Shown here one piece after another: positions 7,649 through 59,112 of a stretch of 64,000 nucleotides of DNA (within the stretch, counting starts at the first letter, position 1; each line of letters begins with the position of its first letter). Origin of the DNA: a virus. The stretch is from IMG/VR virus record IMGVR_UViG_3300037502_003770, positions 241,643 to 305,642 of that record; one strand, 5' to 3'. A program made the position numbers and the translations under genes. Under the pieces are notes generated by a model. That model ran no database searches and was not told the origin of the DNA. It saw only the letters and a program-made list of their open reading frames with translations.

Positions 7649-8433
7649 AATTAAAAGATAAAAATAAAGTAATTAACTTTACATTAACTAAAAAAAATGA
7701 AAAAGTATCTTCTAAAGAAGATTATAATTCTTATATAAATAAAGTTTCAGAAGAAAATATTATATTTCCAAAAGATGAAGAAATTACATTATTTTATCCT
7801 GAAGATAATTTTAATATTATACCATTTTATAAAACAAACAATAGTGATTTTTTATCATTTAATACATACACTTCAATATTATATAATGAAAATGAATTAA
7901 AATATATTAATGATAATTTAAAGACTTCATATTATATTTTTTCAATATATGATAATTATGATAGTAATAACCAAAAATTATTAAATCAATTTAAAATTAA
8001 TGCTGGTGAGAAAGGTACGTATAATATTGTTAATCAACTTATAACTCCTAGATTAAAATATTTTAATAATCAAGGTTTAACTAAATCTTTTAATGTTTTA
8101 CCTATACCAATAGATAAACTGAAAAATAACACTATTTATTTAAAAATAGTGTTTTTTAATTCAAAAAATGGTTTGTTTACTTATTTCAATAATAGTAGTC
8201 AAATTTTAACAACTGAGGAAAAAAATTATATAACAACAATAATTAATCCTATAAATAAAACCTATACTTTTAATAGTAACACTATTGAAATTACCCAATC
8301 TTCTATTAAAGATAGTTTTATTTATGAAAATAATAAATTAAATACCAATAAGAATACTTTATCACCATTAAATGATTCTAATGATGATATTTCTTTTGGT
8401 ATAGATAATATTTTAAAAAAATTCAAAATATGA
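7642..8433 (+). CDS. Hypothetical virion-module protein, 263 aa
   Basis: It overlaps the preceding gene by 7 bases and the next small gene by 4 (ATGA type). It has mixed alpha/beta composition and no recognised domain. A strong hairpin with a T-run lies inside its coding sequence near 8128-8157. It is probably structural from position, with unknown function. Confidence 0.6.
   Translation: MLKLKDKNKVINFTLTKKNEKVSSKEDYNSYINKVSEENIIFPKDEEITLFYPEDNFNIIPFYKTNNSDFLSFNTYTSILYNENELKYINDNLKTSYYIFSIYDNYDSNNQKLLNQFKINAGEKGTYNIVNQLITPRLKYFNNQGLTKSFNVLPIPIDKLKNNTIYLKIVFFNSKNGLFTYFNNSSQILTTEEKNYITTIINPINKTYTFNSNTIEITQSSIKDSFIYENNKLNTNKNTLSPLNDSNDDISFGIDNILKKFKI
8128..8157 (+). terminator. Intragenic hairpin followed by T-run
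   Basis: The arms aacactattt (8128-8137) and aaatagtgtt (8144-8153) pair perfectly over 10 bases with a 6-base loop, followed by TTTT. The shape is that of an intrinsic terminator but it sits inside a coding region, so it could attenuate transcription or be incidental. Confidence 0.35.
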
Positions 8434-8606
8434 TAGAAGCATTAAGTCTATTTTTTTTATTTATGTCCATTGTTAAAGTTATAGGGACATTATACTATAT
8501 AGTTTACTCATTTATAAAGAAAGAACCTATATTCTTTGAAAAAGAAGAAGAAAGGTTAATGAACTGGTTTAGTTTTGCTTATATTCTAACATATATATTT
8601 TTTTAA
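8430..8606 (+). CDS. Small membrane protein, 58 aa
   Basis: The ATG overlaps the stop of the gene before (ATGA). An N-terminal hydrophobic stretch (residues about 5-30: LSLFFLFMSIVKVIGTLYYI) looks like one transmembrane helix. A charged KKEP...EKEEE segment and a second hydrophobic tail (FAYILTYIFF) follow. It ends 3 bases before the next start. A holin-like role is possible from size and topology but there is no direct evidence. Confidence 0.6.
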   Translation: MIEALSLFFLFMSIVKVIGTLYYIVYSFIKKEPIFFEKEEERLMNWFSFAYILTYIFF

Positions 8607-8609
8607 TGT

Positions 8610-9098
8610 ATGGATATAGTAATTATTTTAGAATATCTTGTTTATTATGAATCTAGGTCTGGGATAAAACAAATGCAAATAAATTTTCGTTTATTTAATA
8701 AATATCTCTATGATTATAGATATAATCTTTTAATGATGGATTTTATTAAGGTATATTATTCTTGTAATATAAATGAATGGTTTAGAAAGATTATATCTAG
8801 TGATGATGAATATTATCTTTTATTAAAAGATATATTAGAAAAAAATATAGAAGTATTTAATTATTTACCTTATATTACAATATTTAATAACGATAAATTA
8901 ATATGTAAACTTTTTAAATATAATACAAACCCTTTCAAAGATTTAAAAAAACGTTATATAGAACATTTTATAAATAAAAATTCATATTCAAAATTACAAT
9001 TTTTAAGAAATAAAGAAAGAATTATAAAAATATATAATGAAGGCGATAAATCTATTAAAGATTATCTACCTGAAAATTTTAAATATATTTTAGATTAA
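8610..9098 (+). CDS. Hypothetical protein, 162 aa
   Basis: Three bases separate it from the small membrane protein. The sequence is mostly helical with many Tyr, Lys and Ile residues, and has no signal peptide or known motif. It is the last gene before the promoter-like element that precedes the neck-like gene. Function unknown. Confidence 0.55.
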   Translation: MDIVIILEYLVYYESRSGIKQMQINFRLFNKYLYDYRYNLLMMDFIKVYYSCNINEWFRKIISSDDEYYLLLKDILEKNIEVFNYLPYITIFNNDKLICKLFKYNTNPFKDLKKRYIEHFINKNSYSKLQFLRNKERIIKIYNEGDKSIKDYLPENFKYILD

Positions 9099-9101
9099 AA
9101 A

Positions 9102-9117
9102 CTATTTATATTTATAA
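9102..9117 (+). promoter_or_regulatory. CTATTTATA element (candidate phage promoter)
   Basis: ctatttatatttata lies 27 bases before the ATG at 9129. It matches the element before 6221, 30045, 53285 and 57590. Confidence 0.45.
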
Positions 9118-9128
9118 GTTAAATATAA

Positions 9129-10247
9129 ATGGAAATCTTAGATAGGGAAAAATTATTTAGACAAATTAGAGTTGAATGTATAGCTACGGCTAGACCAGCA
9201 GTTAATAAAGATTTAACAGACGATGTTATATTAACTCAAATTGAAATAGCTATGGAAGATTACATGGCTTATATACAAAACTGGTTAACATTACAACAAT
9301 GGTCTTCTTTGTCTAATTTAGATATATCGCAAGCTGACTTAGTTAATGCTTTTACAACTAAAACATTAGATTTTGAAAAAGAATTCGCAGCAGCTTTTGG
9401 AAAACAAACTGGTATAGGTGTTATAGGTGATTGGGAATTAAAAAAGGATTTTGTAACAATATCCGCAAATACTCAAAGTTATTTAATACCAGCTAATAGA
9501 GAAATAAATCAAGTTTTATGGGAAACACCGCCACAATTGGCAGGAAATATTATAGACCCATTTACACCTAATTCTTGGGCAGCAGCCCCTTATGGTTGGA
9601 ATGTTGGGGGTGTACCAGCATCAGCTTTATTACCTGCATTTTCTTTAATGCTTACTTCGCAAGATAGGATGCAAAAGAAAAAACTTTTACAAAGTGAATT
9701 AACTTATAAAATAAGTCCTGGACCTAACGGTACGAAAAGATTATTTTTATATCCGATGCCTGGCGGTAGAGATGAAATGACTGGACCTGGTTTTGCATCT
9801 TTGAAAAGATTTGAAGGTTCTCAAGTATGGTATTGGTATTATGATACTAATACTTTGGGTAGAGATAAATGTTTAGAAGAAAATAATGATATTATAATAT
9901 TACCAACAGATGTACCTTTTAGAATTTTAAAATGGGAAAGATTAAATTCACCTACACAAAATAAAGTTAGAAGATTAGCTGTATCTTATTGTAAAAAATA
10001 TGTTGGTATGGTTATGGGTTTATATTCAGGTAAAATATCAGCACCTAATAACGATGATTTACAATTAGATTATAATATGTTTATTGAACAATCAGAAAAA
10101 GAAAAGGAAAAAATATTTGAAGAACTTAAAGAAGAACTTAAAGAATTAGATTATACTAATATAATAAAAAAGAAAGCTGAAATGGCTGACAGTTTAAATA
10201 CTGTATTAAAATATTCACCACCTCAACAACCATTCTATTTCTTTTAA
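9129..10247 (+). CDS. Probable neck/connector structural protein
   Basis: 372 residues. Composition is more balanced than its neighbours (Trp, Gly, Pro and Ala present), as expected of a conserved head-tail protein. The N-terminal half is helical and Asp/Glu-rich (DREKLFRQIRVECIATARPA). The middle holds the Trp- and Pro-rich segments SYLIPANREINQVLW and YKISPGPNGTKRLFLYPMPG. A charged coiled-coil segment (EKEKEKIFEELKEELKEL) precedes a PPQQPFYFF tail. I link it to the neck/connector proteins of T4-like phages on overall layout and context, not on a diagnostic motif. It has its own promoter-like element and terminator, suggesting a high-copy virion protein. Confidence 0.5.
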   Translation: MEILDREKLFRQIRVECIATARPAVNKDLTDDVILTQIEIAMEDYMAYIQNWLTLQQWSSLSNLDISQADLVNAFTTKTLDFEKEFAAAFGKQTGIGVIGDWELKKDFVTISANTQSYLIPANREINQVLWETPPQLAGNIIDPFTPNSWAAAPYGWNVGGVPASALLPAFSLMLTSQDRMQKKKLLQSELTYKISPGPNGTKRLFLYPMPGGRDEMTGPGFASLKRFEGSQVWYWYYDTNTLGRDKCLEENNDIIILPTDVPFRILKWERLNSPTQNKVRRLAVSYCKKYVGMVMGLYSGKISAPNNDDLQLDYNMFIEQSEKEKEKIFEELKEELKELDYTNIIKKKAEMADSLNTVLKYSPPQQPFYFF

Positions 10248-12475: not shown

Positions 12476-12718
12476 TTATAATAATCGATAATAAATAATT
12501 TTATAATTATTATTAGTATGTATTTTATTCTTACTATATAGAGTAACCCATTCATAATATATATCTTTTTTACTTCTATTTAAATCAGACTTTAAACAAA
12601 GACAAAAATCTACATGATTAAATATATTAGCAGGGTTGTCAGTACCATCCATATTATTATCAATAATATATAAACTTTCTCTATAATAAGTTGTATTTAT
12701 TTGTATTTCTATTTTCAT
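12476..12718 (-). CDS. Array member 1: small YxE-cassette protein, 80 aa
   Basis: Last gene of the array in transcription order. The N-terminus MKIEIQINTTYYRE carries the shared cassette with Tyr12 and Glu14. The remainder, which has two Cys (CLCLKS) and a basic Tyr-rich end, resembles no other member. Unknown function. Its stop is 3 bases from the convergent plus gene with no visible terminator. Confidence 0.65.
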   Translation of the reverse strand: MKIEIQINTTYYRESLYIIDNNMDGTDNPANIFNHVDFCLCLKSDLNRSKKDIYYEWVTLYSKNKIHTNNNYKIIYYRLL

Positions 12719-12723
12719 ATTTT

Positions 12724-12909
12724 TTAGTAATAAGGTTTGTTTAATACATCTTCAAAACATACATGAGCTTCATTAATAAATGGAATGAAAATAGTAAATT
12801 GATAGTTTACAACATGTATACTTTTAATAATAACTAATGATTCGATACAACCATTTAAAAATAAATATTCATAATAAAAATTATTATTAATTCTAATTAA
12901 TATTTTCAT
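12724..12909 (-). CDS. Array member 2: small YxE-cassette protein, 61 aa
   Basis: Cassette MKILIRINNNFYYE with Tyr12 and Glu14. The rest is hydrophobic beta-type (SLVIIKSIHVVNYQFTIFI) and ends in KPYY. Five bases separate it from the next array gene. Unknown function. Confidence 0.65.
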   Translation of the reverse strand: MKILIRINNNFYYEYLFLNGCIESLVIIKSIHVVNYQFTIFIPFINEAHVCFEDVLNKPYY

Positions 12910-12915
12910 AATTTT

Positions 12916-13116
12916 TTATTTACCATAATCACGATAGTATTTTACTATATTATATTTACCAGGAAAAAAACAAAATTTATTTTCAAAATACTGATAAAAT
13001 AACCAATCAATAAATTTAAGAAACCTACAATTATATCTTATATCAAAAGAAAATTCTAAAACAGAATAAAGAAATTCACGATATATAATATGTGTTAAAG
13101 TAATATTTATATTCAT
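12916..13116 (-). CDS. Array member 3: small YxE-cassette protein, 66 aa
   Basis: Cassette MNINITLTHIIYRE with Tyr12 and Glu14. The body is aromatic-rich (Phe, Trp, Tyr) and ends KYYRDYGK. Six bases from its neighbours on either side. Unknown function. Confidence 0.65.
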   Translation of the reverse strand: MNINITLTHIIYREFLYSVLEFSFDIRYNCRFLKFIDWLFYQYFENKFCFFPGKYNIVKYYRDYGK

Positions 13117-13122
13117 AATTTT

Positions 13123-13326
13123 TTATTCGTGATAAGAATAATAAGTATTAACAACTATTCTATCTTTTAAGGTAGAATTTTTAAATAATAAAATACTATG
13201 ATATTTGTTTGTTTTGTTATAAAAATGAATTTTTATATATGAACCAATAAATGAATTTATAATATCGTTGTCAATATATATTTCTTTATATTCAAGAAAA
13301 TAATCAATGTAAATAAATATTTCCAT
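13123..13326 (-). CDS. Array member 4: small YxE-cassette protein, 67 aa
   Basis: Cassette MEIFIYIDYFLEYKE with the Tyr/Glu pair at 13 and 15 (one residue longer). The C-terminal part (YHSILLFKNSTLKDRIVVNT) is beta-type and ends TYYSYHE. Unknown function. Confidence 0.65.
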   Translation of the reverse strand: MEIFIYIDYFLEYKEIYIDNDIINSFIGSYIKIHFYNKTNKYHSILLFKNSTLKDRIVVNTYYSYHE

Positions 13327-13328
13327 AA

Positions 13329-13514
13329 TTAGAAACTATAATATTTATTACGATTTTTACTAGGATATTTAATCATATAAGAATAAATTAAAGAAAATTC
13401 ATTTAAAATTTTATTATCACTTTTTATTTCACATATAATATATGATATATTAGTATAATAATAACATTCAAAATATTTTACATGTATATTATATAAATCA
13501 ATTAATATTCGCAT
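13329..13514 (-). CDS. Array member 5: small YxE-cassette protein, 61 aa
   Basis: Divergent cassette MRILIDLYNIHVKYFE, Tyr14 and Glu16. The end (PSKNRNKYYSF) has the basic, Tyr-rich tail typical of the array. It overlaps the preceding array gene by 17 bases. Unknown function. Confidence 0.6.
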   Translation of the reverse strand: MRILIDLYNIHVKYFECYYYTNISYIICEIKSDNKILNEFSLIYSYMIKYPSKNRNKYYSF

Positions 13515-13737
13515 AAATATTATAATATTTACTGTGGTAACGTAAAAATATAAAATAACTAAAATAATAGTTATCTGATAGTAAATCAGGGAATTCTAAT
13601 TCATCTTTAATAAGAAAGAAATCATCTATAGTATTTATTTTTAATAAATTGATAATTACTATAATTTGATTATCATTTCCATTAAATAAATTTTCAAAAT
13701 AAGTTATAATATTTTCTATTTTAATTAATATTTCCAT
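13498..13737 (-). CDS. Array member 6: small YxE-cassette protein, 79 aa
   Basis: Cassette MEILIKIENIITYFE, Tyr13 and Glu15. The middle (NQIIVIINLLKINTIDDFFL) is followed by an acidic stretch, then an aromatic tail (YYNIYANIN). Its end overlaps the next array gene. Unknown function. Confidence 0.65.
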   Translation of the reverse strand: MEILIKIENIITYFENLFNGNDNQIIVIINLLKINTIDDFFLIKDELEFPDLLSDNYYFSYFIFLRYHSKYYNIYANIN

Positions 13738-13740
13738 AGT

Positions 13741-13938
13741 TTAATAAAATTTATACTGTTCATCATGTAAACTAAAATATATTTTATTATCGTTTTCCCA
13801 ATTATATATTATATAGTTAATATAATATTCTTTTCTTAGACGAGTTAAAGGATATAATATTAAATTAGAATTAAATAGAAATCCTGTATCAGAGTTCTCC
13901 CTATAATAAGAATTATACGTTTCTATTTCTATTTCCAT
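13741..13938 (-). CDS. Array member 7: small YxE-cassette protein, 65 aa (tandem duplicate of next gene upstream)
   Basis: Cassette MEIEIETYNSYYRE, the same as member 8 except for one residue. The C-termini also match (NDNKIYFSLHDEQYKFY against NDGKIYFSTHNKEYKYY). The first 38 bases around the start are identical in both genes. This is the clearest recent duplication in the array. Unknown function. Confidence 0.7.
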   Translation of the reverse strand: MEIEIETYNSYYRENSDTGFLFNSNLILYPLTRLRKEYYINYIIYNWENDNKIYFSLHDEQYKFY

Positions 13939-13939
13939 A
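13902..13939 (-). repeat. 38-base direct repeat, copy A (start of array member 7)
   Basis: Identical by eye to 14088-14125 and covering the first cassette codons. The copies are 186 bases apart, one gene length, consistent with tandem gene duplication. Confidence 0.8.
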
Positions 13940-13941
13940 GT

Positions 13942-14124
13942 TTAATAGTATTTATATTCTTTATTATGAGTCGAAAAATATATCTTACCATCATTTCTCC
14001 AATTATTATATATGATATATTTCTTTAATATTAAAGATAATTTTAAAATAGATTTAAATTTATATTCTTTGTCAGAGCTATATTCCTTATAATAAGAATT
14101 ATACGTTTCTATTTCTATTTCCAT
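13942..14124 (-). CDS. Array member 8: small YxE-cassette protein, 60 aa (duplicate of member 7)
   Basis: Cassette MEIEIETYNSYYKE. Only the middle differs markedly from member 7. Its first 26 bases overlap the end of the methyltransferase-like gene upstream, so the two are translationally coupled. Unknown function. Confidence 0.7.
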   Translation of the reverse strand: MEIEIETYNSYYKEYSSDKEYKFKSILKLSLILKKYIIYNNWRNDGKIYFSTHNKEYKYY

Positions 14125-14125
14125 A
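14088..14125 (-). repeat. 38-base direct repeat, copy B (start of array member 8)
   Basis: Partner of 13902-13939. It includes the last codons of the methyltransferase-like gene, so that gene's C-terminus is encoded by cassette DNA read in another frame. Confidence 0.8.
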
Positions 14126-14899
14126 ATTACTAAAATACTGATATATTTCCACTTTTGTTAAATAAGGACTTGTAATAAATGATTTTCCTTTAGTAAGGTC
14201 TTCATTTTCAAATACATCTTTTATATAAGAAAGATTATTTTTATCAAAAACTAAGACTTTATAAATCATATTATGTTTATCAGGTGTAGTTATTTTACCA
14301 ACATTGCTTCCACGTCTAATAATAGAAAAATCGTATTCTAAAGAATCATAATTTTTATCACGTTTATCAAATAATTTAAATAAATCACTTTTATTAGAAG
14401 TATTGCTTTTGTTTAATAAACCGTTCTTTGGTCTAATATAAATATTAAAACAACAATGAAGTTTTCTACTATCAGAAAAATTTACTATTCCTAAATCAAT
14501 ACTTTCAACTAAATCAAAATCAAATAAAGTATTTGTATTATTTAATTGAGTGATTGGTAAAATAAAACCTACTACATCAGATATTTTAACTGATTTTTTA
14601 AAAAAACTTCTAGCTAAATTATTTCTTTCACCAAAAGGAGGGTTTCCTATAATTAATCTACCTTTTTGATAATCAATACCTAATTTAAGAAAATCAGCTT
14701 TTATAATAGAATCATCTTCAGGTTCAATATCGTAACCAATACAATCAGGTATTAATTTTAGAAAAGAACCATTTCCAGCAGAAGGTTCTATTACTTGAGA
14801 AATTTCAATATTATGTAAATTACATATTTCATATATTTTATTTATACAAAATTGAGCTGTTTCTTGAGGAGTATAGTACTTGTCGTTTTCTATTTTCAT
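14099..14899 (-). CDS. DNA adenine-N6 methyltransferase-like protein
   Basis: 266 residues. The SAM-binding motif I is EPSAGNGSF (38-46) and the catalytic motif IV is NPPFG (86-90), the order and type of gamma-class N6-adenine DNA methyltransferases. GRLIIGNPPFG and the following FFKKSVKISDVVGFILP also fit the family. There is no obvious target-recognition domain, so it is either a short stand-alone enzyme or a protein/RNA methyltransferase of similar fold. It sits inside the small-protein array, overlapping member 8 by 26 bases and starting 4 bases into member 9. A likely role is protecting phage DNA from host restriction. Modifying another substrate cannot be excluded. Confidence 0.75.
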   Translation of the reverse strand: MKIENDKYYTPQETAQFCINKIYEICNLHNIEISQVIEPSAGNGSFLKLIPDCIGYDIEPEDDSIIKADFLKLGIDYQKGRLIIGNPPFGERNNLARSFFKKSVKISDVVGFILPITQLNNTNTLFDFDLVESIDLGIVNFSDSRKLHCCFNIYIRPKNGLLNKSNTSNKSDLFKLFDKRDKNYDSLEYDFSIIRRGSNVGKITTPDKHNMIYKVLVFDKNNLSYIKDVFENEDLTKGKSFITSPYLTKVEIYQYFSNYGNRNRNV

Positions 14900-15105
14900 A
14901 ATATTTGTGAATTAATGAATCTACTGTATTTTGCAATTTTGTTTATAATAAAATTAATATTTCTATAAAATTTAATATTTGTTTCACTATGATATAATCT
15001 ATTATATTGAATAAGCATTGTAAATGAAAATCTATAATTTTTAAAGATACTTAAATTATCTATTTCAAAATAAGTAAAGTTTTCAGTTTTAATACTTAAA
15101 ATCAT
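14896..15105 (-). CDS. Array member 9: small YxE-cassette protein, 69 aa
   Basis: Cassette MILSIKTENFTYFE, Tyr12 and Glu14. The body (FSFTMLIQYNRLYHSETNIK) ends in a basic SRFINSQIL. It overlaps the genes on both sides by 4 bases (ATGA type). Unknown function. Confidence 0.65.
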   Translation of the reverse strand: MILSIKTENFTYFEIDNLSIFKNYRFSFTMLIQYNRLYHSETNIKFYRNINFIINKIAKYSRFINSQIL

Positions 15106-15356
15106 TTTATTTTATATGAACGAAGTGTTTTTAATATTTCATCATCTATTAATTTAGTAGTTTCATATGATATGAGTTTTGACATGAAAGTTTCTATATT
15201 ATTAGTTTCATAATAAAAAGTTTTAGAATCAATATGATTTATACTATTTTCTTCAATATAAACAGTATATTCTAAATCTAATTTTATTAAAGTAATACTA
15301 ATTTCAAAAGAATTTTCTTTATAAGAAAAATTATTTGTTTTGATTAAAATTTTCAT
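15102..15356 (-). CDS. Array member 10: small YxE-cassette protein, 84 aa
   Basis: Cassette MKILIKTNNFSYKE, the closest to the array consensus. The body is acidic (LEYTVYIEENSINHIDSKTF) with a helical C-terminus (ETTKLIDDEILKTLRSYKIK). It overlaps member 11 by 26 bases. Unknown function. Confidence 0.7.
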   Translation of the reverse strand: MKILIKTNNFSYKENSFEISITLIKLDLEYTVYIEENSINHIDSKTFYYETNNIETFMSKLISYETTKLIDDEILKTLRSYKIK

Positions 15357-15621
15357 TTGTTAACATATTTAAATTAAAATTTAAAGGTACTTCACTAATA
15401 AATGAAGGTACTTTTATATTTATTGTACATAGGTGAAAATGGCTTTCATAATAAGTTGTTTTTTTAGAAAAACTAACAACATTATAGTAATAATTATTAT
15501 CAAAATATAATCTTATTATTAAACTAGGTAAATGAATAAAAGCACCAATATCATAATTAGAATTTTCATAATCAAAATTTTCTATATAAGAAAAATTATT
15601 TATTTTAATTTGTAATTTCAT
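15331..15621 (-). CDS. Array member 11: small YxE-cassette protein, 96 aa
   Basis: Longest member. The cassette MKLQIKINNFSYIE is followed by Asn/Tyr-rich turns and beta-type segments (FIHLPSLIIRLYFDNNYYYN). It overlaps member 10 by 26 bases and member 12 by 17. Unknown function. Confidence 0.65.
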   Translation of the reverse strand: MKLQIKINNFSYIENFDYENSNYDIGAFIHLPSLIIRLYFDNNYYYNVVSFSKKTTYYESHFHLCTINIKVPSFISEVPLNFNLNMLTNENFNQNK

Positions 15622-15793
15622 GATTTAAATAATATTTATTTTTTCTATTATTATGTAATAAAGTATCCTTTTCATAATATAATCTTATATAATCATATTC
15701 AGGTAAAAATATAATTCTACAATAAATGTAATAATATTTAAAATCATAATCTTCACTATATTCAAAATTTTCTAAAGTAATTAAAATCAACAT
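15605..15793 (-). CDS. Array member 12: small YxE-cassette protein, 62 aa
   Basis: Cassette MLILITLENFEYSE, Tyr12 and Glu14. The Tyr-rich body (DFKYYYIYCRIIFLPEYDYI) ends in a basic KYYLNHEITN. Unknown function. Confidence 0.65.
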   Translation of the reverse strand: MLILITLENFEYSEDYDFKYYYIYCRIIFLPEYDYIRLYYEKDTLLHNNRKNKYYLNHEITN

Positions 15794-15797
15794 AATT

Positions 15798-15986
15798 CTA
15801 AAGTTTATAATATTTTATATTTTGTAAATCAAATATTAGTTTAGATTTAAAAATATTATAATAAGATTTATCATCAATAAAATTTAATAAATTTATAGTA
15901 AATTTTATAATTGTAGAACTACCATGTACTAGACGTTCACAATAAAATTTATAATTATCAAACATTACTCTAATATTAATATTTTC
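15798..15986 (-). CDS. Array member 13: small YxE-cassette protein, 62 aa
   Basis: A longer open frame begins at 16025, but I choose the internal ATG at 15986 (MENINIRVMFDNYKFYCE). From there the protein has the array cassette (Tyr16/Glu18), the usual family length, and only an 11-base overlap with the ATP-grasp gene before it. The C-terminus ends in KYYKL. Unknown function. Confidence 0.6.
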   Translation of the reverse strand, partial: ENINIRVMFDNYKFYCERLVHGSSTIIKFTINLLNFIDDKSYYNIFKSKLIFDLQNIKYYKL

Positions 15987-16758
15987 CATCAATAACTTGT
16001 TTAAATCTTTTATAATAGTTTTCAAAAAAATTCATATTATCAAAACCATAAGTACCTGTACCAAAAATATCATTTATTTCAATTAAAGATGTTTTACCAT
16101 TTTTAAGTACTGCAAAATCTAATGTATATAATTCAGGAGTTTTATTATAAGTAATATTACTAAAATCTTGAATACATTCCATAACTAATTTTTTATCAAG
16201 AAAATAATTATTATCATTTAATGTATCACCAAGATATAATTTAACTGATAAAATTTCATTCTTATGAATCCATAATCTATATTCTGATAATATATCAATA
16301 TGTGTTGAATATAAAAACGGTACTGAAGATTCGATATTACTATCAACTAGTAAATTAAATTGTCTTTCATTTTCAATAAATGAACCATTAAATAATTTAG
16401 TCATGTTTAAAGGTTTTACAAAAATACCTTCATTATGTTCTTTGATTAATTTATCAAAACTGTTTATATTTCCAAGAATTAATTTTCTTTCAAAAAACTT
16501 CTCATTCATATAAATCATTTGATTTGTTAAAGAATAAGTTTCTTCAATATTATAATATTCTTTAAGTTTTTGAAAACAATATTCAACGCTACCAGAAAAA
16601 ATATCACCTTCTTGAAAGGAAGATTCATCTGTTGTGTATTCAATATTTGTTTTGTTCCACCAATTATATTTTTTAATTGAGGAAATTAAATCAAAAGTAT
16701 GTTGATAGAGCGGTAATCCGTCTTCATCTTTTTGATATATAAGTTTAATATTTTTCAT
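15976..16758 (-). CDS. ATP-grasp domain protein (possible peptide/amino-acid ligase)
   Basis: 260 residues. The C-terminal half carries ATP-grasp features: the substrate/ATP lysine strand GIFVKPLN (111-118) with a following FNGSF turn, SEYRLWIHKNEILSVKLY (158-175), and the metal-binding end YTLDFAVLKNGKTSLIEIND with D214, E227 and N229. The family layout resembles small ATP-grasp proteins of the DUF4343 type, several of which join amino acids or modify peptides. It lies in the middle of the small-protein array and overlaps members 13 (11 bases) and 14 (14 bases). This makes the array proteins or a host protein candidate substrates. That link is inference from position. Confidence 0.7.
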   Translation of the reverse strand: MKNIKLIYQKDEDGLPLYQHTFDLISSIKKYNWWNKTNIEYTTDESSFQEGDIFSGSVEYCFQKLKEYYNIEETYSLTNQMIYMNEKFFERKLILGNINSFDKLIKEHNEGIFVKPLNMTKLFNGSFIENERQFNLLVDSNIESSVPFLYSTHIDILSEYRLWIHKNEILSVKLYLGDTLNDNNYFLDKKLVMECIQDFSNITYNKTPELYTLDFAVLKNGKTSLIEINDIFGTGTYGFDNMNFFENYYKRFKQVIDGKY

Positions 16759-16966
16759 TAAATATATTAGGATTAAGTTTTAGTTGTAAATTAAACAACC
16801 TCCACATATCATATTCTTCATAATAATTATATTCGGACCAAATATGTGAAATAGTACCATCAGTAAAATAAAAATCTAATTTTAACGGTAAAAATCTACC
16901 TTCTAATTTAATTGTAAAATCTATTTCTGAATAAGTGATGTGATTTGTTTTAATTATTATATTCAT
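16745..16966 (-). CDS. Array member 14: small YxE-cassette protein, 73 aa
   Basis: Cassette MNIIIKTNHITYSE, Tyr12 and Glu14. The body has the pattern LPLKLDFYFTDGTISHIWSE, then a helical acidic end (NPNIFNEKY). It shares one base with member 15 and overlaps the ATP-grasp gene by 14. Unknown function. Confidence 0.65.
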   Translation of the reverse strand: MNIIIKTNHITYSEIDFTIKLEGRFLPLKLDFYFTDGTISHIWSEYNYYEEYDMWRLFNLQLKLNPNIFNEKY

Positions 16967-17241
16967 TAGAAACTGTTTTTATTATAAAAATTACAAGTAT
17001 GAAAATTTTTAGAACTAAATATTAGTACAATATCATTAAATATATCCATATATATAAACATTGTATTATATTTATAAAGAAAATCATTATCTTTAATATT
17101 AAATCCTATACAAGTAAGAAATTTACCATACGAAGTACTATAACTTTCAAGATAATTTACAGATTCTTCATATAGTATATTATTAATTGTAATTTGTAAA
17201 ATAATATATCTACCTGTTTTTTTATTAAAAATACCAGCCAT
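16966..17241 (-). CDS. Array member 15: small YxE-cassette protein with N-terminal extension, 91 aa
   Basis: An extra basic segment (MAGIFNKKTGRY) precedes the cassette, which reads IILQITINNILYEE with Tyr24/Glu26. No ATG occurs directly at the cassette, so the extension is probably real. The C-terminus (SKNFHTCNFYNKNSF) has a Cys-containing aromatic tail. Unknown function. Confidence 0.6.
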   Translation of the reverse strand: MAGIFNKKTGRYIILQITINNILYEESVNYLESYSTSYGKFLTCIGFNIKDNDFLYKYNTMFIYMDIFNDIVLIFSSKNFHTCNFYNKNSF

Positions 17242-17253
17242 AAAAAAATTTTA

Positions 17254-17523
17254 TTAAGTTAGTTGATTATAGTTGTAGTAATAATTATTTCCGTAATCTA
17301 AATAATAGTAAAATTGATTAAATCTAATAATTATATCTAATTCAATATATTCTCTATTTTTATCAATAGTTTTATTATTAAGATTATAAATATGATTATT
17401 ATGATAATAATCAGATGGAAAAGTAAATAATTCTTTATAAAAGTCGATTTTATAAAGAAAGAAATAAGAATCTACTAATTCTTTATATTCAAAAAAATCA
17501 TTTGCTATATATAAGTTATTCAT
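17254..17523 (-). CDS. Array member 16: divergent YxE-cassette protein, 89 aa
   Basis: Weak cassette MNNLYIANDFFEYKE (Tyr13/Glu15) that has lost the alternating Ile pattern. The body ends in a very Tyr/Asn-rich tail (FYYYLDYGNNYYYNYN). It overlaps member 17 by 8 bases. Unknown function. Confidence 0.55.
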   Translation of the reverse strand: MNNLYIANDFFEYKELVDSYFFLYKIDFYKELFTFPSDYYHNNHIYNLNNKTIDKNREYIELDIIIRFNQFYYYLDYGNNYYYNYNQLT

Positions 17524-17740
17524 AATATTTAAATTTTAAAATTTTATAACCAAAAGTACTAATATTAAGAATATCATGATTATCTGATATAGTTGAATTA
17601 TCTATATCAAATGCTAATCTATTTTTATATTGTAAATCATTTACTGATAATAAAATACCAGCATGTATAAATCTATTAAAAATTATACCTGTAGTTTCCT
17701 TATAAAGAAAGTTATCAGATAGTTTAATTATTATTTCCAT
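17516..17740 (-). CDS. Array member 17: small YxE-cassette protein, 74 aa
   Basis: Cassette MEIIIKLSDNFLYKE, Tyr13 and Glu15. The body is beta-type (FIHAGILLSVNDLQYKNRLA) and ends ILKFKYYE. It overlaps member 18 by 10 bases. Unknown function. Confidence 0.65.
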   Translation of the reverse strand: MEIIIKLSDNFLYKETTGIIFNRFIHAGILLSVNDLQYKNRLAFDIDNSTISDNHDILNISTFGYKILKFKYYE

Positions 17741-17997
17741 AAAAAATCAATTTTATCTTTAAAAGTAACATATTCAGAATTGTAATAATCATAAGATTTA
17801 TGCTGTGTAATTAAATAATTATATTCATAAATAAAATTATGTTCATTTAAAATATTACAAGTAATACCCTTATCAACACATTCAATAAAATTAAAATTGA
17901 AATATTCTTGTACTTCATACTTATTTAAGTAAACAAGATTAAAAGAATCACGTCTTTCAACATAGTTTATTTTATTTAAATAAAGTTTTATTTCCAT
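17731..17997 (-). CDS. Array member 18: small YxE-cassette protein, 88 aa
   Basis: Cassette MEIKLYLNKINYVE, Tyr12 and Glu14. The body has two Cys (FIECVDKGITCN), a Tyr/His-rich stretch and a KDKIDFLWK end. Unknown function. Confidence 0.65.
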   Translation of the reverse strand: MEIKLYLNKINYVERRDSFNLVYLNKYEVQEYFNFNFIECVDKGITCNILNEHNFIYEYNYLITQHKSYDYYNSEYVTFKDKIDFLWK

Positions 17998-18005
17998 AAA
18001 ATATT

Positions 18006-18194
18006 TTAGTTATAATAATTAAACTTTTCATAATCGAATAAATCAAATTTTATACAATTATAAGACCTTGATTTAAATACGAACTTTTCGGTGGTATCAA
18101 ATGATAATAAGTATATTATTTTGTAATGTAAAAAAATACCAATACTTGAATTTTCAGTATAATTGATTTCTAAAAGTTCAATTGAAATTAACAT
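18006..18194 (-). CDS. Array member 19: small YxE-cassette protein, 62 aa
   Basis: Cassette MLISIELLEINYTE, Tyr12 and Glu14. The short body (FVFKSRSYNCIKFDLFDYEK) ends FNYYN. It overlaps member 20 by 7 bases. Unknown function. Confidence 0.65.
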   Translation of the reverse strand: MLISIELLEINYTENSSIGIFLHYKIIYLLSFDTTEKFVFKSRSYNCIKFDLFDYEKFNYYN

Positions 18195-18439
18195 AATTGA
18201 TAAAAATTAAATTGAATATCTTTACGACCATCATAATCACCATCTTTAATTACAGAATCAATATAAGATTGAATATAATAAGATTGATTAAAACTATTAT
18301 AATCAAAAACAAAAATATATTCTTCTGTGATAATAGACCTTGATATTTTAAAAGATAAATAAAGTCGAGATTCTATTCTATATTTAGAACAACGTTCAAT
18401 ATATTCATAATTATTTGTTTTTATATCTATTTCTAACAT
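18188..18439 (-). CDS. Array member 20: small YxE-cassette protein, 83 aa
   Basis: First small gene after the SNF2 helicase, one base after its stop. Cassette MLEIDIKTNNYEYIE, Tyr13 and Glu15. The acidic/basic C-terminal half (KDGDYDGRKDIQFNFYQLC) ends with a Cys. Unknown function. Confidence 0.65.
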   Translation of the reverse strand: MLEIDIKTNNYEYIERCSKYRIESRLYLSFKISRSIITEEYIFVFDYNSFNQSYYIQSYIDSVIKDGDYDGRKDIQFNFYQLC

Positions 18440-18440
18440 A

Positions 18441-20285
18441 TTACTTTTTATAAATTTCTTTAAATTTATTAATTACTTCAGCAAGTACACTACTATTAGA
18501 ATTATCTATATAATCAATATTATCTACAACTTTGTTAATAACTTTAAGTTTATTATTAATAATTTCATAAATTGTCTCATCAATTGTTTCACTAAACAAA
18601 AATATAAATACATTTGTATGTTCTTTTTGTCCAGACCTATGTATTCTAGCATAACATTGTTCATTTTCGGCAGGAACATAGCTTTGTGATAACATAAACA
18701 TATTCTTTGCTTTAGTTAAAGTAATACCTGCGTTACCAGCCCCAACTGTTAATAATAAATTTTGTATAGTATTATTATCTCCTTGAAAAATATCAACAAT
18801 ATCTTGTCTTGTATCGGACTTTATATCACCAGTATATAATTCACTATTATTAAGAATGGTTTTAAGTTCTTTTAATGAAGATTTATAACAATCAAATATT
18901 AAAACTTTTTCATTTTCTTCATTTAAACGTTCAATATATTCTACTAAATATTTAGATTTTAATTTTGATGTATATTGTCTTAATTCGGTTAAGATTGTTA
19001 ACGGTGTTTTTTGTTTTTCATTTAAAGAAATATTCATATTACCATTTTTATCTTCTTTATAATCACTTAAATTATCCCAATTAGCATCTTTAAATCCACT
19101 TTCTATTCTTTTATATTCAGCTTCTTCTGAAGGTGTTAATTCTAAATAAATCTTATTTATTGTTAAAGGAGGTAATTCTTTAAGAACATCTTCTTTTTTT
19201 ACACGAAACATTATCTTTGATAATTTTTCATATATCATATCAAATTTAATATTATCATTTATTTGTACGTATGTATTAATCTTATTATTAAAGAACATAC
19301 CACAATATTCAGTATAGAATTTATTTTTACTTTTAAATTCTATCGGTCTTAATAATTTAAGTAAATTATATAATTCTTGTACTCTATTTGGAACTGGAGT
19401 ACCTGTTAATAACATAAGATTTGTATTACTTAAAGATTTCTTAAAACTTTTAGTAAAATTCTTAAACATTTGTGTTTTAGAATTCTTTAATTTATGTGCT
19501 TCATCAAAAATAATACTATCAACATTAGATAAACCTAAACTTGTTATTTTTTTATTAACATCAAAATTTCTTGAAAAATACTCATAGTTAGTAATAATAT
19601 ATTTACTTTCTTCTAAAGAATAACAATTTAACTTAGATTTTGAATTTAAAACAAAAGCTTTTGAATTTGTAAAGTGATGTATTTCTTTAAGCCAATTAAG
19701 TTTTAAAGAACTAGGTACTATAACTAAAACTTTTTTACTTTGATTGATTTCTGATGCTAATATAGCTAATAATGTTTTACCAGTACCTAAATCGGCAGCT
19801 ATTAAACTATTTTTTAAATGATTAGCAAATAATGCACCTTTTATTTGGTGATTATATGGTTTCACACCTTCTTTTAAATATTTAGAATAATCAAACTTTT
19901 CCGAAACTTCATCTAATGATTGTAAAAACGTATTTAGATTAGAATCTATTGTTGCAATAATTTCTTTGTTTTTATCTTCCTTAATTTTTTTTCTCTTATA
20001 GAAATCTAATTTTGAAGAAAAAACTTCTTTATCTTCACTATTTACAAAAGAAAAAAATATATCTTTCCTTGATTTATATTCAGATATTAAACAATATAAA
20101 TTATATCCGTTAAGATGCCAAGTCTTATCAGAAGGGTTATATTTTTTATCATCAAGTTTTTTTATATTAAAAACAAGCTCTTCATTATAAAATGACTTTA
20201 ATGAAAAGGTCTTTTTATCCGAAAGGAGAGTTATGTTTACTTTAAAAATTTCAGTTGCCGTATGTATATTTGTATTTTCAAACAT
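18441..20285 (-). CDS. SNF2/SWI2-type helicase (UvsW/SMARCAL1-like)
   Basis: 614 residues. The motor has Walker A DLGTGKT (165-171) after a Q-motif-like YNHQIKG, a DEAH box (IIFDEAHKLKN, near 260), motif III LTGTPVPNR, and the SNF2 signature ARIHRSGQKEHTNVF with a conserved TVGAGNAGITLTKA. The N-terminal about 60 residues (KKLDDKKYNPSDKTWHLNG) resemble the HARP-like segment of annealing helicases. Phage enzymes of this type remodel branched DNA during recombination-dependent replication. It is the first gene of the minus run that contains the small-protein array and reads away from the divergent control region. Confidence 0.85.
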   Translation of the reverse strand: MFENTNIHTATEIFKVNITLLSDKKTFSLKSFYNEELVFNIKKLDDKKYNPSDKTWHLNGYNLYCLISEYKSRKDIFFSFVNSEDKEVFSSKLDFYKRKKIKEDKNKEIIATIDSNLNTFLQSLDEVSEKFDYSKYLKEGVKPYNHQIKGALFANHLKNSLIAADLGTGKTLLAILASEINQSKKVLVIVPSSLKLNWLKEIHHFTNSKAFVLNSKSKLNCYSLEESKYIITNYEYFSRNFDVNKKITSLGLSNVDSIIFDEAHKLKNSKTQMFKNFTKSFKKSLSNTNLMLLTGTPVPNRVQELYNLLKLLRPIEFKSKNKFYTEYCGMFFNNKINTYVQINDNIKFDMIYEKLSKIMFRVKKEDVLKELPPLTINKIYLELTPSEEAEYKRIESGFKDANWDNLSDYKEDKNGNMNISLNEKQKTPLTILTELRQYTSKLKSKYLVEYIERLNEENEKVLIFDCYKSSLKELKTILNNSELYTGDIKSDTRQDIVDIFQGDNNTIQNLLLTVGAGNAGITLTKAKNMFMLSQSYVPAENEQCYARIHRSGQKEHTNVFIFLFSETIDETIYEIINNKLKVINKVVDNIDYIDNSNSSVLAEVINKFKEIYKK

Positions 20286-20395
20286 ATAAATATAGATTGT
20301 TAATGTGGTATATATTTTTATAATTCTTTTTTGTTAAAAAATTTTAACATTTTAAATATTAAGTTTTACTAGCAGTAAATTAAGAAGAAAATAGT
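20286..20395. promoter_or_regulatory. Divergent control region between the helicase/array run and the winged-helix gene
   Basis: 110 bases with no gene, very A/T rich, serving both strands. An inverted repeat gttaaaa-aa-ttttaac lies in the middle (about 20334-20349) and could be an operator or the hairpin of a leader. Minus-strand transcription of about 7.8 kb must start here or inside the first gene. I see no clear Bacteroidota promoter consensus. Confidence 0.45.
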
Positions 20396-52014: not shown

Positions 52015-52302
52015 ATGGAAATATCAATTAAAACTAATAATATTACTTATTTTGAATCAAATAATGTTCATAATATTATTAAATGTTATTTTAGTAATCT
52101 TTATCTGATTTATGAATTAGAAATTCTTAAAGATAAGGATTACTTTTTAAGAATAAAATTTGAAGATTATGATTGTTTCCTTTCTATTAAAAGAAATTTA
52201 TTAGAATATAGATATATTAGTATTAAAGATTTTAATATATTATCTATTGGTACATACTTAAAAAATCCTCAGCACACAAAATACGAAAAACTTATTAAAT
52301 AA
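52015..52302 (+). CDS. Array-family protein outside the array (member 21), 95 aa
   Basis: Cassette MEISIKTNNITYFE with Tyr12/Glu14, the same pattern as the minus-strand array at 12476-18439, but here on the plus strand between nrdB and thioredoxin. The C-terminal 80 residues (YELEILKDKDYFLRIKFEDY) are unlike the others. It shows the family is not limited to the cluster. Confidence 0.65.
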   Translation: MEISIKTNNITYFESNNVHNIIKCYFSNLYLIYELEILKDKDYFLRIKFEDYDCFLSIKRNLLEYRYISIKDFNILSIGTYLKNPQHTKYEKLIK

Positions 52303-56620: not shown

Positions 56621-56659
56621 CAAAATATATTTCTAAAAGTATTATCTATATCAAACAAG

Positions 56660-56731
56660 ACGATTGTAGTTCAGCAGGTAGAACGAAGGTCAGAAAACCT
56701 TGAGTCGACAGTTCAAGTCTGTCCTTTCGTT
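56660..56731 (+). tRNA. tRNA-like gene with odd anticodon loop (isotype uncertain, Phe possible)
   Basis: The T-arm is perfect (gacag-ttcaagt-ctgtc) and the D-arm pairs (gttc/gaac). The acceptor stem has two T-T mismatches (acgattg with ctttcgt). The anticodon arm pairs as aaggt/acctt, leaving a 6-base loop, cagaaa, where 7 is normal. If read as cagaaaa the anticodon is GAA (Phe), but the base at position 33 is A, not T. It may be degenerate, edited or specialised. Confidence 0.5.
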
Positions 56732-56750
56732 TGTTTGATATTTTAATTTT

Positions 56751-56823
56751 GGTGTTGTAGCTCAGTTGGTAGAGCGATTGACTGTTAATCAATTGGTCGT
56801 AGGTTCAATCCCTACCATCACCG
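56751..56823 (+). tRNA. tRNA-Asn (anticodon GTT)
   Basis: Full cloverleaf: acceptor ggtgttg with catcacc (one T-T mismatch), D-arm with the usual AGCTCAGTTGG sequence, anticodon loop ctgttaa, T-arm gtagg-ttcaatc-cctac. It lacks an encoded CCA. It decodes AAC/AAT, which are frequent in this Asn-rich phage. Confidence 0.85.
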
Positions 56824-56854
56824 CTTTATTTTAAAAATATAATCTTTCTTTAAT

Positions 56855-57460
56855 ATGAATTATTCTAAACATTTATTTATTTCTATTGGTACTGAAATTA
56901 ACTTTGATTTTCATTCTATTTCTGATGAATATGAATTAAAATTAGTTAATGATTCTAAAAATAACAATGAATATGCTAGTTTAGTTTATTTAGGTGAATT
57001 TTCTGAATTAAAACAATTTACTTTAGGTTATGTAGATTCAACAACAAATGAATTTAAAAGTAGTACATTTAAAATAGATGATAAATATACAACAGAAAAA
57101 GAATTATTAACGATTTTAGTTAAATGTTTAAAACAATTTTATCAAAAATATCCTGTTTTAAACGGTTATATGTTATTTGATTATATAACTCCTTTTTTAA
57201 TAAAAAGATTAATTGTTAATGGTTTTTTATTAAATGAATTACCAGCTCATTTAACAGATTATACAAAAAAGCCTTGGGAAAAAATAAACTTTTGTTTATA
57301 TGATTTCTGGAAGTTTGGTAGTTATAATAAATCTGCAACAATGTATATTCTATGTAAACTATTTAATGTTGAATTTGATATACATAATATAAATAGTGAG
57401 ACCTTTCTAAAAAGTTATTTTTCTTTAATTGAGAAAATCTTTAAGAAGAATACTATTTAA
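56855..57460 (+). CDS. Divergent PolB-like 3'-5' exonuclease relative, catalytic residues apparently lost
   Basis: 201 residues. PFLIKRLIVNGFLLNELPAH, then TKKPWEKINFC and DFWKFGSYNKSATMYI, match a characteristic order of predicted PolB-like 3'-5' exonucleases (FDIPFIxRRxxINGIxLP, KKPWE, DxxxxWKFGDYK). The expected acidic residues of the DEDD site are not clear: the first strand reads LFISIGTEINF. So it may be inactive. It lies between two tRNA genes. Confidence 0.5.
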   Translation: MNYSKHLFISIGTEINFDFHSISDEYELKLVNDSKNNNEYASLVYLGEFSELKQFTLGYVDSTTNEFKSSTFKIDDKYTTEKELLTILVKCLKQFYQKYPVLNGYMLFDYITPFLIKRLIVNGFLLNELPAHLTDYTKKPWEKINFCLYDFWKFGSYNKSATMYILCKLFNVEFDIHNINSETFLKSYFSLIEKIFKKNTI

Positions 57461-57475
57461 ATAAAATATAAACAA

Positions 57476-57549
57476 CGCAGGGTAGAGCAGTGGTCAGCTC
57501 GCAAGGCTCATAACCTTTGAGGTCGTTGGTTCGAATCCAATCCCTGCTA
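57476..57549 (+). tRNA. tRNA-Met (anticodon CAT), initiator-like
   Basis: Six Watson-Crick pairs (gcaggg/ccctgc) and a mismatched 1:72 end (C-T), D-arm gagc/gctc with an A11-T24 pair, loop ctcataa, and a T-arm (gttgg-ttcgaat-ccaat). The mismatch and the A11-T24 pair are initiator features. The three G-C pairs usual in initiator anticodon stems are absent (only two). No CCA is encoded. Confidence 0.8.
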
Positions 57550-57568
57550 CTAATTTAAATTAATTTTA

Positions 57569-57581
57569 CTATTTATATAAT
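57569..57581 (+). promoter_or_regulatory. CTATTTATA element before tnpB
   Basis: ctatttatataat begins 21 bases before the ATG at 57590. The mobile gene therefore carries the same candidate promoter as phage genes. Confidence 0.4.
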
Positions 57582-57589
57582 ATATATTT

Positions 57590-58843
57590 ATGTACTCTAT
57601 TAAAATAAGACTTTATTTAAATAAAAAACAACAAGAAAAATTAGAATCAATTTTTAATTCTTGTCGTTTTATTTATAATAAATGTCTTTCTTATAAAATA
57701 GATACATATAATAATGAAAAAAGAATTTTAAGTGAATTTGATTTAGTAAATTATTATGGGCAAGTTTTAAGAAAAGACCCTAATTATAGTTTTTTATTAA
57801 ATACAAATTCTAAACTACATAATTCTACAATTCTTCATGTTAATTCATCATTTGTCAATTTTATTAAACATAATAAAGGTTTTCCTAAGTTTAAAAGTAA
57901 AAGAGAAAAAGAAAAAAGTTGTAAATTTCCTAATAAAGCTATTTCTGTTAACTTTTTATCAGAAGGAAAGTATTTAAATTTTATAACTGATTTTAATAGA
58001 GTAAGGTTTAGAACTTCAAAAAAATATTTAGAAATATTAAAATCTATTAAAAGAGATGATATACAAAACATAACTGTTACTAAGAAAAGAAGTGGTATTT
58101 ATGAAGCTTCCATTTGTTTAAATAAATCAAAACCAAAGGGAAAAAAGTTAAAAGATACCAATTCTATTATAGGAATAGATTTAGGTGTTAAACAACTATT
58201 AACCCTTTCTGATAATACCTCCTTTCAAAATAAAAAGTTTTATAAGAAAGAGGATATTAAATTAAAGAAATTACAAAGAAAGCTTTCTAAAAGTATAAAG
58301 TGTTTTAAAGAGAGTAAAAATGAAGATAGTAAGTATTTTGGAAAAAATAAAGGTAAAAATTTAGAAAAGAACAGATTAAAAGTAGCAAGACTTAATGAAA
58401 AAATAACAAACCAAAAAGATACTTATATTCATGAAATAACTTCTAAAATTATAAACGAAAACCAAGTTATAATAATGGAAGATTTGAATGTACAAGGAAT
58501 GTTAAAAAATCATAAACTTGCAAGGTCAATTCAAAATGTCTCTTTTTATGAAATAAAGAGGCAGTTAGAATATAAATCGTCTTTTTATGGAAGAGAATTA
58601 ATCCTTGTAGATAGGTTTTTTCCATCAAGTAAGACTTGTTCTTGCTGCGGAAGTAAAAAGAAAGATTTAAAATTAAGTGACCGAGTATACAAATGTAATA
58701 ACCCTTCATGCGGAGTAGAAATCGATAGAGATTTAAATGCAGCGATTAATATTCGCAACGAAGGAATAAAAATAAAAAATAACCTTCACTTAAATGTGAA
58801 GGTTATTAAAAAGAAAAGTAGGGGTCCGTTGCTCCGAACATAA
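57590..58843 (+). CDS. tnpB: TnpB RNA-guided nuclease (IS200/IS605 family)
   Basis: 417 residues, normal for TnpB. The RuvC site is complete: D197 (IIGIDLGVKQ), E297 (IIMEDLNVQG) and Asp in EIDRDLNAAINI (379-381). A zinc finger C350-C353 (TCSCCG) and C369/C374 lie between. A helix-turn-helix-like N-terminus (LNKKQQEKLESIFNSCRFIY) is typical. No TnpA transposase is next to it. It is inserted in the tRNA cluster between tRNA-Met and tRNA-Glu and has a phage-type promoter element. The last codons lie in a hairpin of the presumed RNA. Confidence 0.9.
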   Translation: MYSIKIRLYLNKKQQEKLESIFNSCRFIYNKCLSYKIDTYNNEKRILSEFDLVNYYGQVLRKDPNYSFLLNTNSKLHNSTILHVNSSFVNFIKHNKGFPKFKSKREKEKSCKFPNKAISVNFLSEGKYLNFITDFNRVRFRTSKKYLEILKSIKRDDIQNITVTKKRSGIYEASICLNKSKPKGKKLKDTNSIIGIDLGVKQLLTLSDNTSFQNKKFYKKEDIKLKKLQRKLSKSIKCFKESKNEDSKYFGKNKGKNLEKNRLKVARLNEKITNQKDTYIHEITSKIINENQVIIMEDLNVQGMLKNHKLARSIQNVSFYEIKRQLEYKSSFYGRELILVDRFFPSSKTCSCCGSKKKDLKLSDRVYKCNNPSCGVEIDRDLNAAINIRNEGIKIKNNLHLNVKVIKKKSRGPLLRT

Positions 58844-58890
58844 CGCTTGCGGACTATCCACTATCGGGGTTATAATTGCAATATATTATA
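58778..58890 (+). ncRNA. Candidate omegaRNA/right-end RNA at the 3' end of tnpB
   Basis: Two hairpins lie here. A 12-base-pair stem (58778-58807) is inside the last codons. A second, gtccg (58824-28) with cggac (58850-54), includes the stop codon in its loop. TnpB guide RNAs typically arise from this overlap of coding end and element end, with the guide downstream. The guide and processing site are not determined. Confidence 0.5.
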
Positions 58891-58953
58891 ATTAGATATG
58901 ATAGGTTGAAACAAGAAAAATATAAAACGATGTCTCTCAGGTAACATTTAATA

Positions 58954-59027
58954 TGCTCGGTTGGTCTAACGGTCATGACGACTCACTTTCTATGAGTAAA
59001 TAAGAGTTCGATTCTCTTATCGAGTAC
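58954..59027 (+). tRNA. tRNA-Glu (anticodon TTC)
   Basis: Acceptor tgctcgg with tcgagta (two G-T wobbles), anticodon stem actca/tgagt with loop ctttcta, T-arm aagag-ttcgatt-ctctt. The anticodon TTC reads GAA/GAG. No CCA is encoded. Confidence 0.85.
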
Positions 59028-59037
59028 AATAAAATAC

Positions 59038-59112
59038 GGAGTATTGGTATAATGGTTATTACGCTTCACTGTCTATGAAGTAATACGAGTTCGATTCTCG
59101 TATACTCCGCCA
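59038..59112 (+). tRNA. tRNA-Asp (anticodon GTC) with encoded CCA
   Basis: Perfect acceptor ggagtat/atactcc, G73, then CCA at 59110-59112. Anticodon stem cttca/tgaag with loop ctgtcta, T-arm acgag-ttcgatt-ctcgt. The only tRNA here with a clear 3' CCA. Confidence 0.9.

Follow-up and report, generated by a model that had tools for sequence, protein, structure and literature searches.

A previously undescribed, lineage-specific family of 102 Tyr-x-Glu proteins in the genome of one T4-like jumbo phage

Why would a phage string together twenty tiny genes that begin alike and appear to end differently? The question is raised by positions 12476-18439 of a 64,000-nucleotide stretch of viral DNA (the window; positions 241643-305642 of the 312,694-bp virus record IMGVR_UViG_3300037502_003770), where the initial annotation described an array of 20 minus-strand paralogous genes sharing an N-terminal Tyr-x-Glu (YxE) cassette, with one further copy at 52015. 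All 21 open reading frames (ORFs) lie at the coordinates claimed for them and carry the cassette, and the positions of its two residues had been given exactly (Tyr12/Glu14 in 13 proteins, Tyr13/Glu15 in 5 and further in in 3). When YxE is sought at residues 10-18, counted from the first-ATG start, it is found in 18 of the 20 array proteins, whereas 2000 residue shuffles gave 1.24 on average and never more than 6, and in an alignment of the 21 window members Tyr12 and Glu14 are the sole invariant columns. The members of the array are thus confirmed as paralogs, but two unrelated genes (14099-14899 and 15976-16758) lie among them; likewise, the 52015 copy belongs to the family, but a further member on the plus strand (8610-9098) had been missed. 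In fact, the array is only one of 12 clusters and a small part of a family of 102 members.

Members were found genome-wide with a profile of the window members, followed by reading of the matched stretches, and six sequences with trimmed or odd starts were added by eye. Motif, profile and manual reading together give 102 paralogs, a total that may be off by a few, as the list combines the motif with judgement. Of the 464 non-overlapping ORFs that start with ATG and have 40 amino acids (aa) or more, they make up 22%; they account for 9.2% of the bases, and all listed copies are intact ORFs. The 12 clusters occupy both strands (genome positions 20.7-23.9, 29.1-31.1, 34.2-38.4, 61.8-76.0, 86.1-92.7, 99.4-104.5, 112.0, 121.3-122.6, 208.0-210.7, 250.3, 254.1-260.1 and 293.7 kb). 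There are 77 short members (<100 aa; 56-97 aa) and 25 long members (103-266 aa), and YxE is invariant across both classes. The motif M..[ILV]x[ILV]...YxE is present in 88 of the 102 members; the 362 ORFs of the genome outside the family include 1 with it, and 244 ORFs taken from other AT-rich viral contigs include 2. These rates speak against a background property of AT-rich ORFs, the concern that the initial annotation itself had named. We know of no larger paralog expansion in any phage, by our own count.

Is the family known from elsewhere? The YxE domain has no credible profile match in Pfam, PHROGs, NCBIfam or the PDB, in agreement with the earlier statement that no known family fits; single members gave weak matches to one PHROG (E 0.006) and one Pfam family (E 0.03). 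A tblastn search with three members found no homologue in 50,697 phage records, and profile searches returned nothing credible from the two nearest uncultured jumbo phages and a Flavobacterium phage, or from 33 viral records with the nearest terminases, several of the viral records compared being fragments. Two strict cassette patterns had no match in IMG/VR and one loose pattern had 21, all unrelated; in 84,980 prokaryote genomes two cassette patterns gave 0 and 24 matches, the latter unrelated. The search for relatives also used single-sequence scans of IMG/VR with the helicase and the terminase. Scans with exact patterns overlook motifs that have diverged, and near records were possibly left out, so that this absence is not proof. 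We found no description of the YxE family within the limits of the literature searched. Taken together, this is a previously undescribed, lineage-specific family of tiny proteins in one T4-like jumbo phage.

What kind of protein do these genes encode? From the N-terminus on, the 77 aligned short members share M-x-I-x-I, an Asn-rich turn, aromatic-x-Tyr-x-Glu and then alternating hydrophobic stretches, and at the C-terminus (Leu/Phe)-Lys-Tyr-Tyr. The ends had initially been described as unrelated, which does not hold: 63 of the 77 short members have an aromatic pair, [YF]Y, among their last 12 residues, compared with 4 of the 103 short ORFs outside the family and 21 of all 362 ORFs outside it. 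Five members located at the end of an operon or opposite a convergent gene also keep the pair. As these five have no nearby downstream start, we consider the pair a feature of the protein, and the idea that KYY serves as the translation or ribosome-binding signal of the next gene was ruled out on the same grounds. Because the pair is common, the short members look like a bounded domain with a variable middle, not like a leader followed by a free core; a core unconserved up to the C-terminus, as a leader/core precursor would have, is not what the sequences contain. An AlphaFold2 model of the member at 17516-17740, made with the 21 window sequences as alignment, has strands at residues 2-6, 11-20 and 23-32 that form a three-stranded N-terminal sheet, with a predicted local distance difference test (pLDDT) score of 84-90 up to residue 30 (about 87 over residues 1-30), and YxE sits within a continuous strand. 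Foldseek found no match to this model in the PDB at E up to 0.001, and a second model (18006-18194) was poor. A ubiquitin-like fold, suggested by the M-x-I-x-I-K-T start, was rejected, since the model is a three-stranded meander with no helix after the hairpin and Foldseek returned nothing significant.

The short and the long class are joined over the first 16 columns only (hhalign E 4e-5). In some long members this element is followed by DUF4116 (Pfam PF13475), which bears out the earlier proposal of a common N-terminal element on differing bodies. DUF4116, a predicted alpha-solenoid repeat (PMC8078820), matches 6 of the 18 sequences in the alignment of the long class, with E values up to 1 and 1.1e-8 at best, one of these six (L027:25-276) being a cassette-less neighbour; the long member at genome 64153-64704 reaches 34.9 bits compared with a curated cut-off of 24.9. 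A Pfam profile search found it in no short window member, and the YxE domain itself is not DUF4116. Genome-wide there are 40 DUF4116 matches, mostly in separate proteins, so that two protein types have expanded in this genome. About 12 proteins with DUF4116 repeats, which begin with NNFDKLSD..IDL.SLN.FLLEKGD, adjoin head and tail genes at genome 6.4-10.4 and 157-198 kb, and several have a late-type motif just up- or downstream.

That the family ORFs are coding is supported by their G+C content (GC) at the three codon positions, which in the short class is 0.225, 0.188 and 0.106 and runs in reverse order on the antisense strand; the third-position value matches that of large genes (0.103). The Tyr and Glu codons of YxE are used at background rates, which points to conservation at the protein level. 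Near the start codon the family genes favour ATA for Ile3 (55 of 66) and ATT for Ile5 (54 of 74), so that two residues of equal conservation show opposite synonymous preferences. Other genes of the phage likewise deviate at codon 3, and this start bias is therefore partly general. RegA-type translational control at the start codons was discarded for the same reason and because there is no RegA homologue.

How did the family grow? The best BLAST partner of a family gene is the adjacent family gene in 22 of 84 cases, where 1.6 are expected (maximum 8 in 2000 permutations), and we therefore regard tandem duplication as the main route. The family genes are interspersed with genes that are clearly accessory (methyltransferase, R2K ATP-grasp and IS605-type), and mobile genes (IS605-type and an unnamed 436-aa family) lie within or beside several arrays. 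The three 436-aa genes (minus strand; genome 69747-71057, 76259-77566 and 86891-88204, in L027 and L028) are 85-87% identical and have a late-type motif upstream; the one copy tested had no Pfam or PHROG match. Two of them extend over the 3' end of a family gene that converges on them; the C-terminus of that family gene reads SNSIKEKDSHLAFL or SNSFKDKGFHLAFP, as if the end of the family gene had been replaced by insertion of the 436-aa gene. One family cluster also contains an ABC-transporter permease and ATPase pair (L027:6399-7211 and 8372-9163), and a nicotinamide phosphoribosyltransferase gene is located at L029:1243-2700.

When during infection might the family be expressed? The phage has a T4-like terminase, with its best matches in a 484-kb uncultured phage and in immuto-group Flavobacterium phages (28-30% identity), and encodes a T4-type portal with an intein, a prohead protease (genome 199874-200542; Peptidase_S77, E 1.2e-27, also PHROG 207) and a major head protein. 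The intein-splicing domain (Pfam Intein_splicing) lies in the minus-strand portal gene at L035:4611-7016 (genome 189610-192015). A TAnnTTTG element, the -7 box of Bacteroidota, occurs at a few sites and, together with the terminase neighbours, suggests a Bacteroidota host. The motif TACTATTTA has 44 sites genome-wide, 36 of them within 150 bases upstream of a start. It precedes the prohead protease, scaffold, portal and other structural genes, at a spacing of about 20-35 bases, with another copy just ahead of the major capsid gene (L168), and is apparently the late promoter of this phage, the counterpart of the T4 late promoter. For none of the 44 sites does the closest start downstream belong to a family gene. 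Another promoter-like class has 39 intergenic sites, which are densest at genome 95-139 kb, and reads TTTAACA-N~17-TGTAATATAAATC in the best of them; several copies overlap a terminator-like hairpin, AAGAAGTCTTTTTT. One of the 39, on the minus strand at 20300-20344 (about 20338; TTTAACA...AAATATATA), precedes the helicase gene with which the operon of the window array begins, and is a partial copy in which the first half of the pattern is matched well and the second half poorly. This non-late site suggests early or middle expression of the window array.

The operon, all on the minus strand, begins with a gene for a SNF2-type DNA helicase (18441-20285, 614 aa; PHROG 62 DNA helicase, E 1.5e-92), separated by a 1-base gap from the array, whose GC is 18%. 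The first member (18188-18439, 83 aa) is followed by those at 18006-18194 (62 aa) and 17731-17997 (88 aa), by the modelled protein at 17516-17740 (74 aa, Y13/E15, ending KFKYYE) and by members at 17254-17523 (89 aa, Y13/E15), 16966-17241 (91 aa, Y24/E26, with an 11-residue extension before the cassette) and 16745-16966 (73 aa). Here the array is interrupted by an R2K-clade ATP-grasp gene (15976-16758, 260 aa; Pfam R2K_2 E 5e-26, R2K_3 E 1e-12), a single copy and the sole R2K gene in the genome. Five members come next: 15798-15989 (63 aa from the ATG at 15989, Y16/E18; the ORF program had placed the start at a TTG at 16025), 15605-15793 (62 aa), 15331-15621 (96 aa), 15102-15356 (84 aa) and 14896-15105 (69 aa). 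The second non-family gene is DNA-methyltransferase-like (14099-14899, 266 aa; PHROG 5172 E 2e-33, PHROG 799, a DNA methyltransferase family, E 5e-14). Downstream of it, 13942-14124 (60 aa) and 13741-13938 (65 aa) are recent tandem duplicates with 54% identity, and the array continues with 13498-13737 (79 aa, Y13/E15), 13329-13514 (61 aa, Y14/E16), 13123-13326 (67 aa, Y13/E15), 12916-13116 (66 aa) and 12724-12909 (61 aa). The last member (12476-12718, 80 aa, Y12/E14) ends KIIYYRLL and keeps the C-terminal YY despite a convergent next gene. Elsewhere in the window, the plus-strand member at 8610-9098 belongs to the long class (162 aa, Y12/E14; profile E 1.8e-10, the sequence itself being a row of that profile), and the isolated plus-strand member at 52015-52302 (95 aa) is flanked by a ribonucleotide-reductase-type and a thioredoxin-like gene. 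Five tRNA genes surround an IS605-type gene (57590-58843) at 56659-59112.

Could the array consist of spurious ORFs, or of a DNA or RNA element at gene starts misread as protein? The low GC of the array and the synonymous bias at Ile3 and Ile5 would fit, but the codon-position gradient is that of real genes, the ORFs are tightly packed head to tail on one strand, the motif is rare in other AT-rich viral ORFs, C-terminal residues are conserved as well and the deviation at codon 3 extends to other genes, so that we give this idea hardly any credence. A more specific proposal starts from the internal proteins of T4: the cassette would be a capsid-targeting sequence cut after Glu, and the variable remainder would be packed and injected with the DNA. 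The phage is T4-like with a T4-type prohead protease, T4 internal proteins are small and diverse with a short N-terminal targeting sequence as their common part (PMC3012670), and in phiKZ heads are cut at [SA]-x-E (PMC9026906), which makes another first residue before x-Glu conceivable. IPI, IPII and IPIII of T4 and the variable internal-protein loci of T-even phages, where the mature 76-residue IPI* inhibits a host restriction enzyme (PMC3012670), are also among the closest known systems, as small, fast-changing genes with a short conserved N-terminal element on variable bodies. However, they are few, packaged, and lose the targeting sequence at LxE, whereas the YxE family comprises about 100 genes with an invariant YxE inside a strand, a common C-terminus in the short class and no late motif directly before them. 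In the phage's own head proteins the candidate sites are of the T4 type, LxE: the major capsid protein has LNE|S at the gp23 position, and two head-module proteins begin with MKKLLTE|A and MRKLTLLE|A. These sites were read from the sequence rather than determined by mass spectrometry; at this place the family has Tyr, never Leu or Ile. Moreover, bulky residues often follow the Glu (Asn 14, Ile 12, Arg 10 and Phe 8 of 101). The different site, the mixed next residues and the position of the motif within a strand make capsid targeting improbable, and with it the earlier idea of a leader-processing step in its T4 form, whose site specificity differs.

The R2K ATP-grasp gene within the array, which runs in the same direction, raises the possibility that the family members are peptide substrates of this enzyme, modified as ribosomal leader/core peptides. 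The R2K clade, phage members included, is predicted to consist of protein-peptide ligases (PMC4431377; PMC7824862). Yet one R2K gene in one of 12 clusters would have to serve 102 members, the short members resemble folded domains whose ends are conserved, and there are phages with R2K but without such a family; the single enzyme gives no sign of having the family as its substrate, and we consider this very unlikely. A serious rival is an expansion that is mostly selfish or near-neutral, by tandem duplication, with little present function in most copies. It would be in keeping with the strong local clustering of nearest relatives, the near-default amino-acid content, a ratio of non-synonymous to synonymous substitution rates (dN/dS) that is elevated as in other paralogs, and the mobile genes in or beside several arrays. 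On the other hand, both ends are conserved while the middles cannot be aligned, every listed copy is an intact ORF in tightly packed arrays that show no decay between genes, and 9% of the genome is kept despite the pressure on phage size; on balance we think this account unlikely, but it has to be taken seriously. Large expansions as such are not new to jumbo phages: in Bacillus phage G a zinc ribbon has expanded to about 35 copies, which its describers called unprecedented (PMC7824862). That case, too, is a lineage-specific expansion of one small protein type, in proteins that are possible transcription factors. The YxE family is unrelated to it, about three times larger and marked by its distinctive pair of conserved ends.

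Which reading accounts for the two conserved ends, the spread through the genome, the growth by tandem duplication and the absence of late motifs directly before family genes? Tentatively, and with a probability of roughly 40%, we favour non-virion, diversified small beta-domain binders that act in host takeover or counter-defence. Many non-essential small phage genes are known to bind host, defence or rival-phage proteins. The short type would be a single bounded domain in which the N-terminal strand leads through a tight, Asn-rich turn into a second strand, the one with the invariant Tyr-x-Glu, followed by at least one further strand, a variable middle and a closing segment that ends in Lys-Tyr-Tyr; the same N-terminal element would head the longer proteins, some of them with DUF4116 repeats. 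The proteins would stay outside the virion and be made early or in mid infection. On the common scaffold each member would present a different variable surface and so may bind a different host, defence or rival-phage protein; in the long members the repeat domain may contact the partners. The N-terminal hairpin could be part of the scaffold or serve for docking to a single common partner. Several observations weigh against these binders. The model has no confident fold beyond about residue 38, with pLDDT <50 in the C-terminal half. The amino-acid content is near the AT-rich default (rich in I, Y, N and F, poor in G, A and P), which fits weak constraint, and dN/dS of family pairs is 0.39-1.2, compared with 0.26-1.06 for other paralogs of the phage at the same identity. 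We therefore make no claim of special diversifying selection, which was rejected as an explanation. In addition, some arrays lie downstream of structural genes, and no promoter was recognised for several arrays. Of the two suggestions made initially, leader/core precursors are not supported, and anti-host effectors, whose targets would be host proteins, are the most plausible that remains.

It is possible, if rather doubtful, that the family represents a new class of phage protein, in which a scaffold with conserved ends and a hypervariable middle, in about 100 copies and with N-terminal fusion to DUF4116, provides a combinatorial repertoire of binders directed at proteins of the host and of rival phages. 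The logic would be comparable to that of the expanded binding-domain families of giant viruses, and there is a fair chance that the working principle of the YxE family is new. Phage genomes have little room to spare, and still 9% of the bases and about one ORF in five belong here to a single family. If the members are binders, they would offer about 100 natural variants on one scaffold, a panel in which to look for host targets and inhibitors of defence; otherwise, an expansion this large would challenge the idea that phages keep only the genes they need. Either way, the family provides a handle on the role of the many small unknown genes of jumbo phages.

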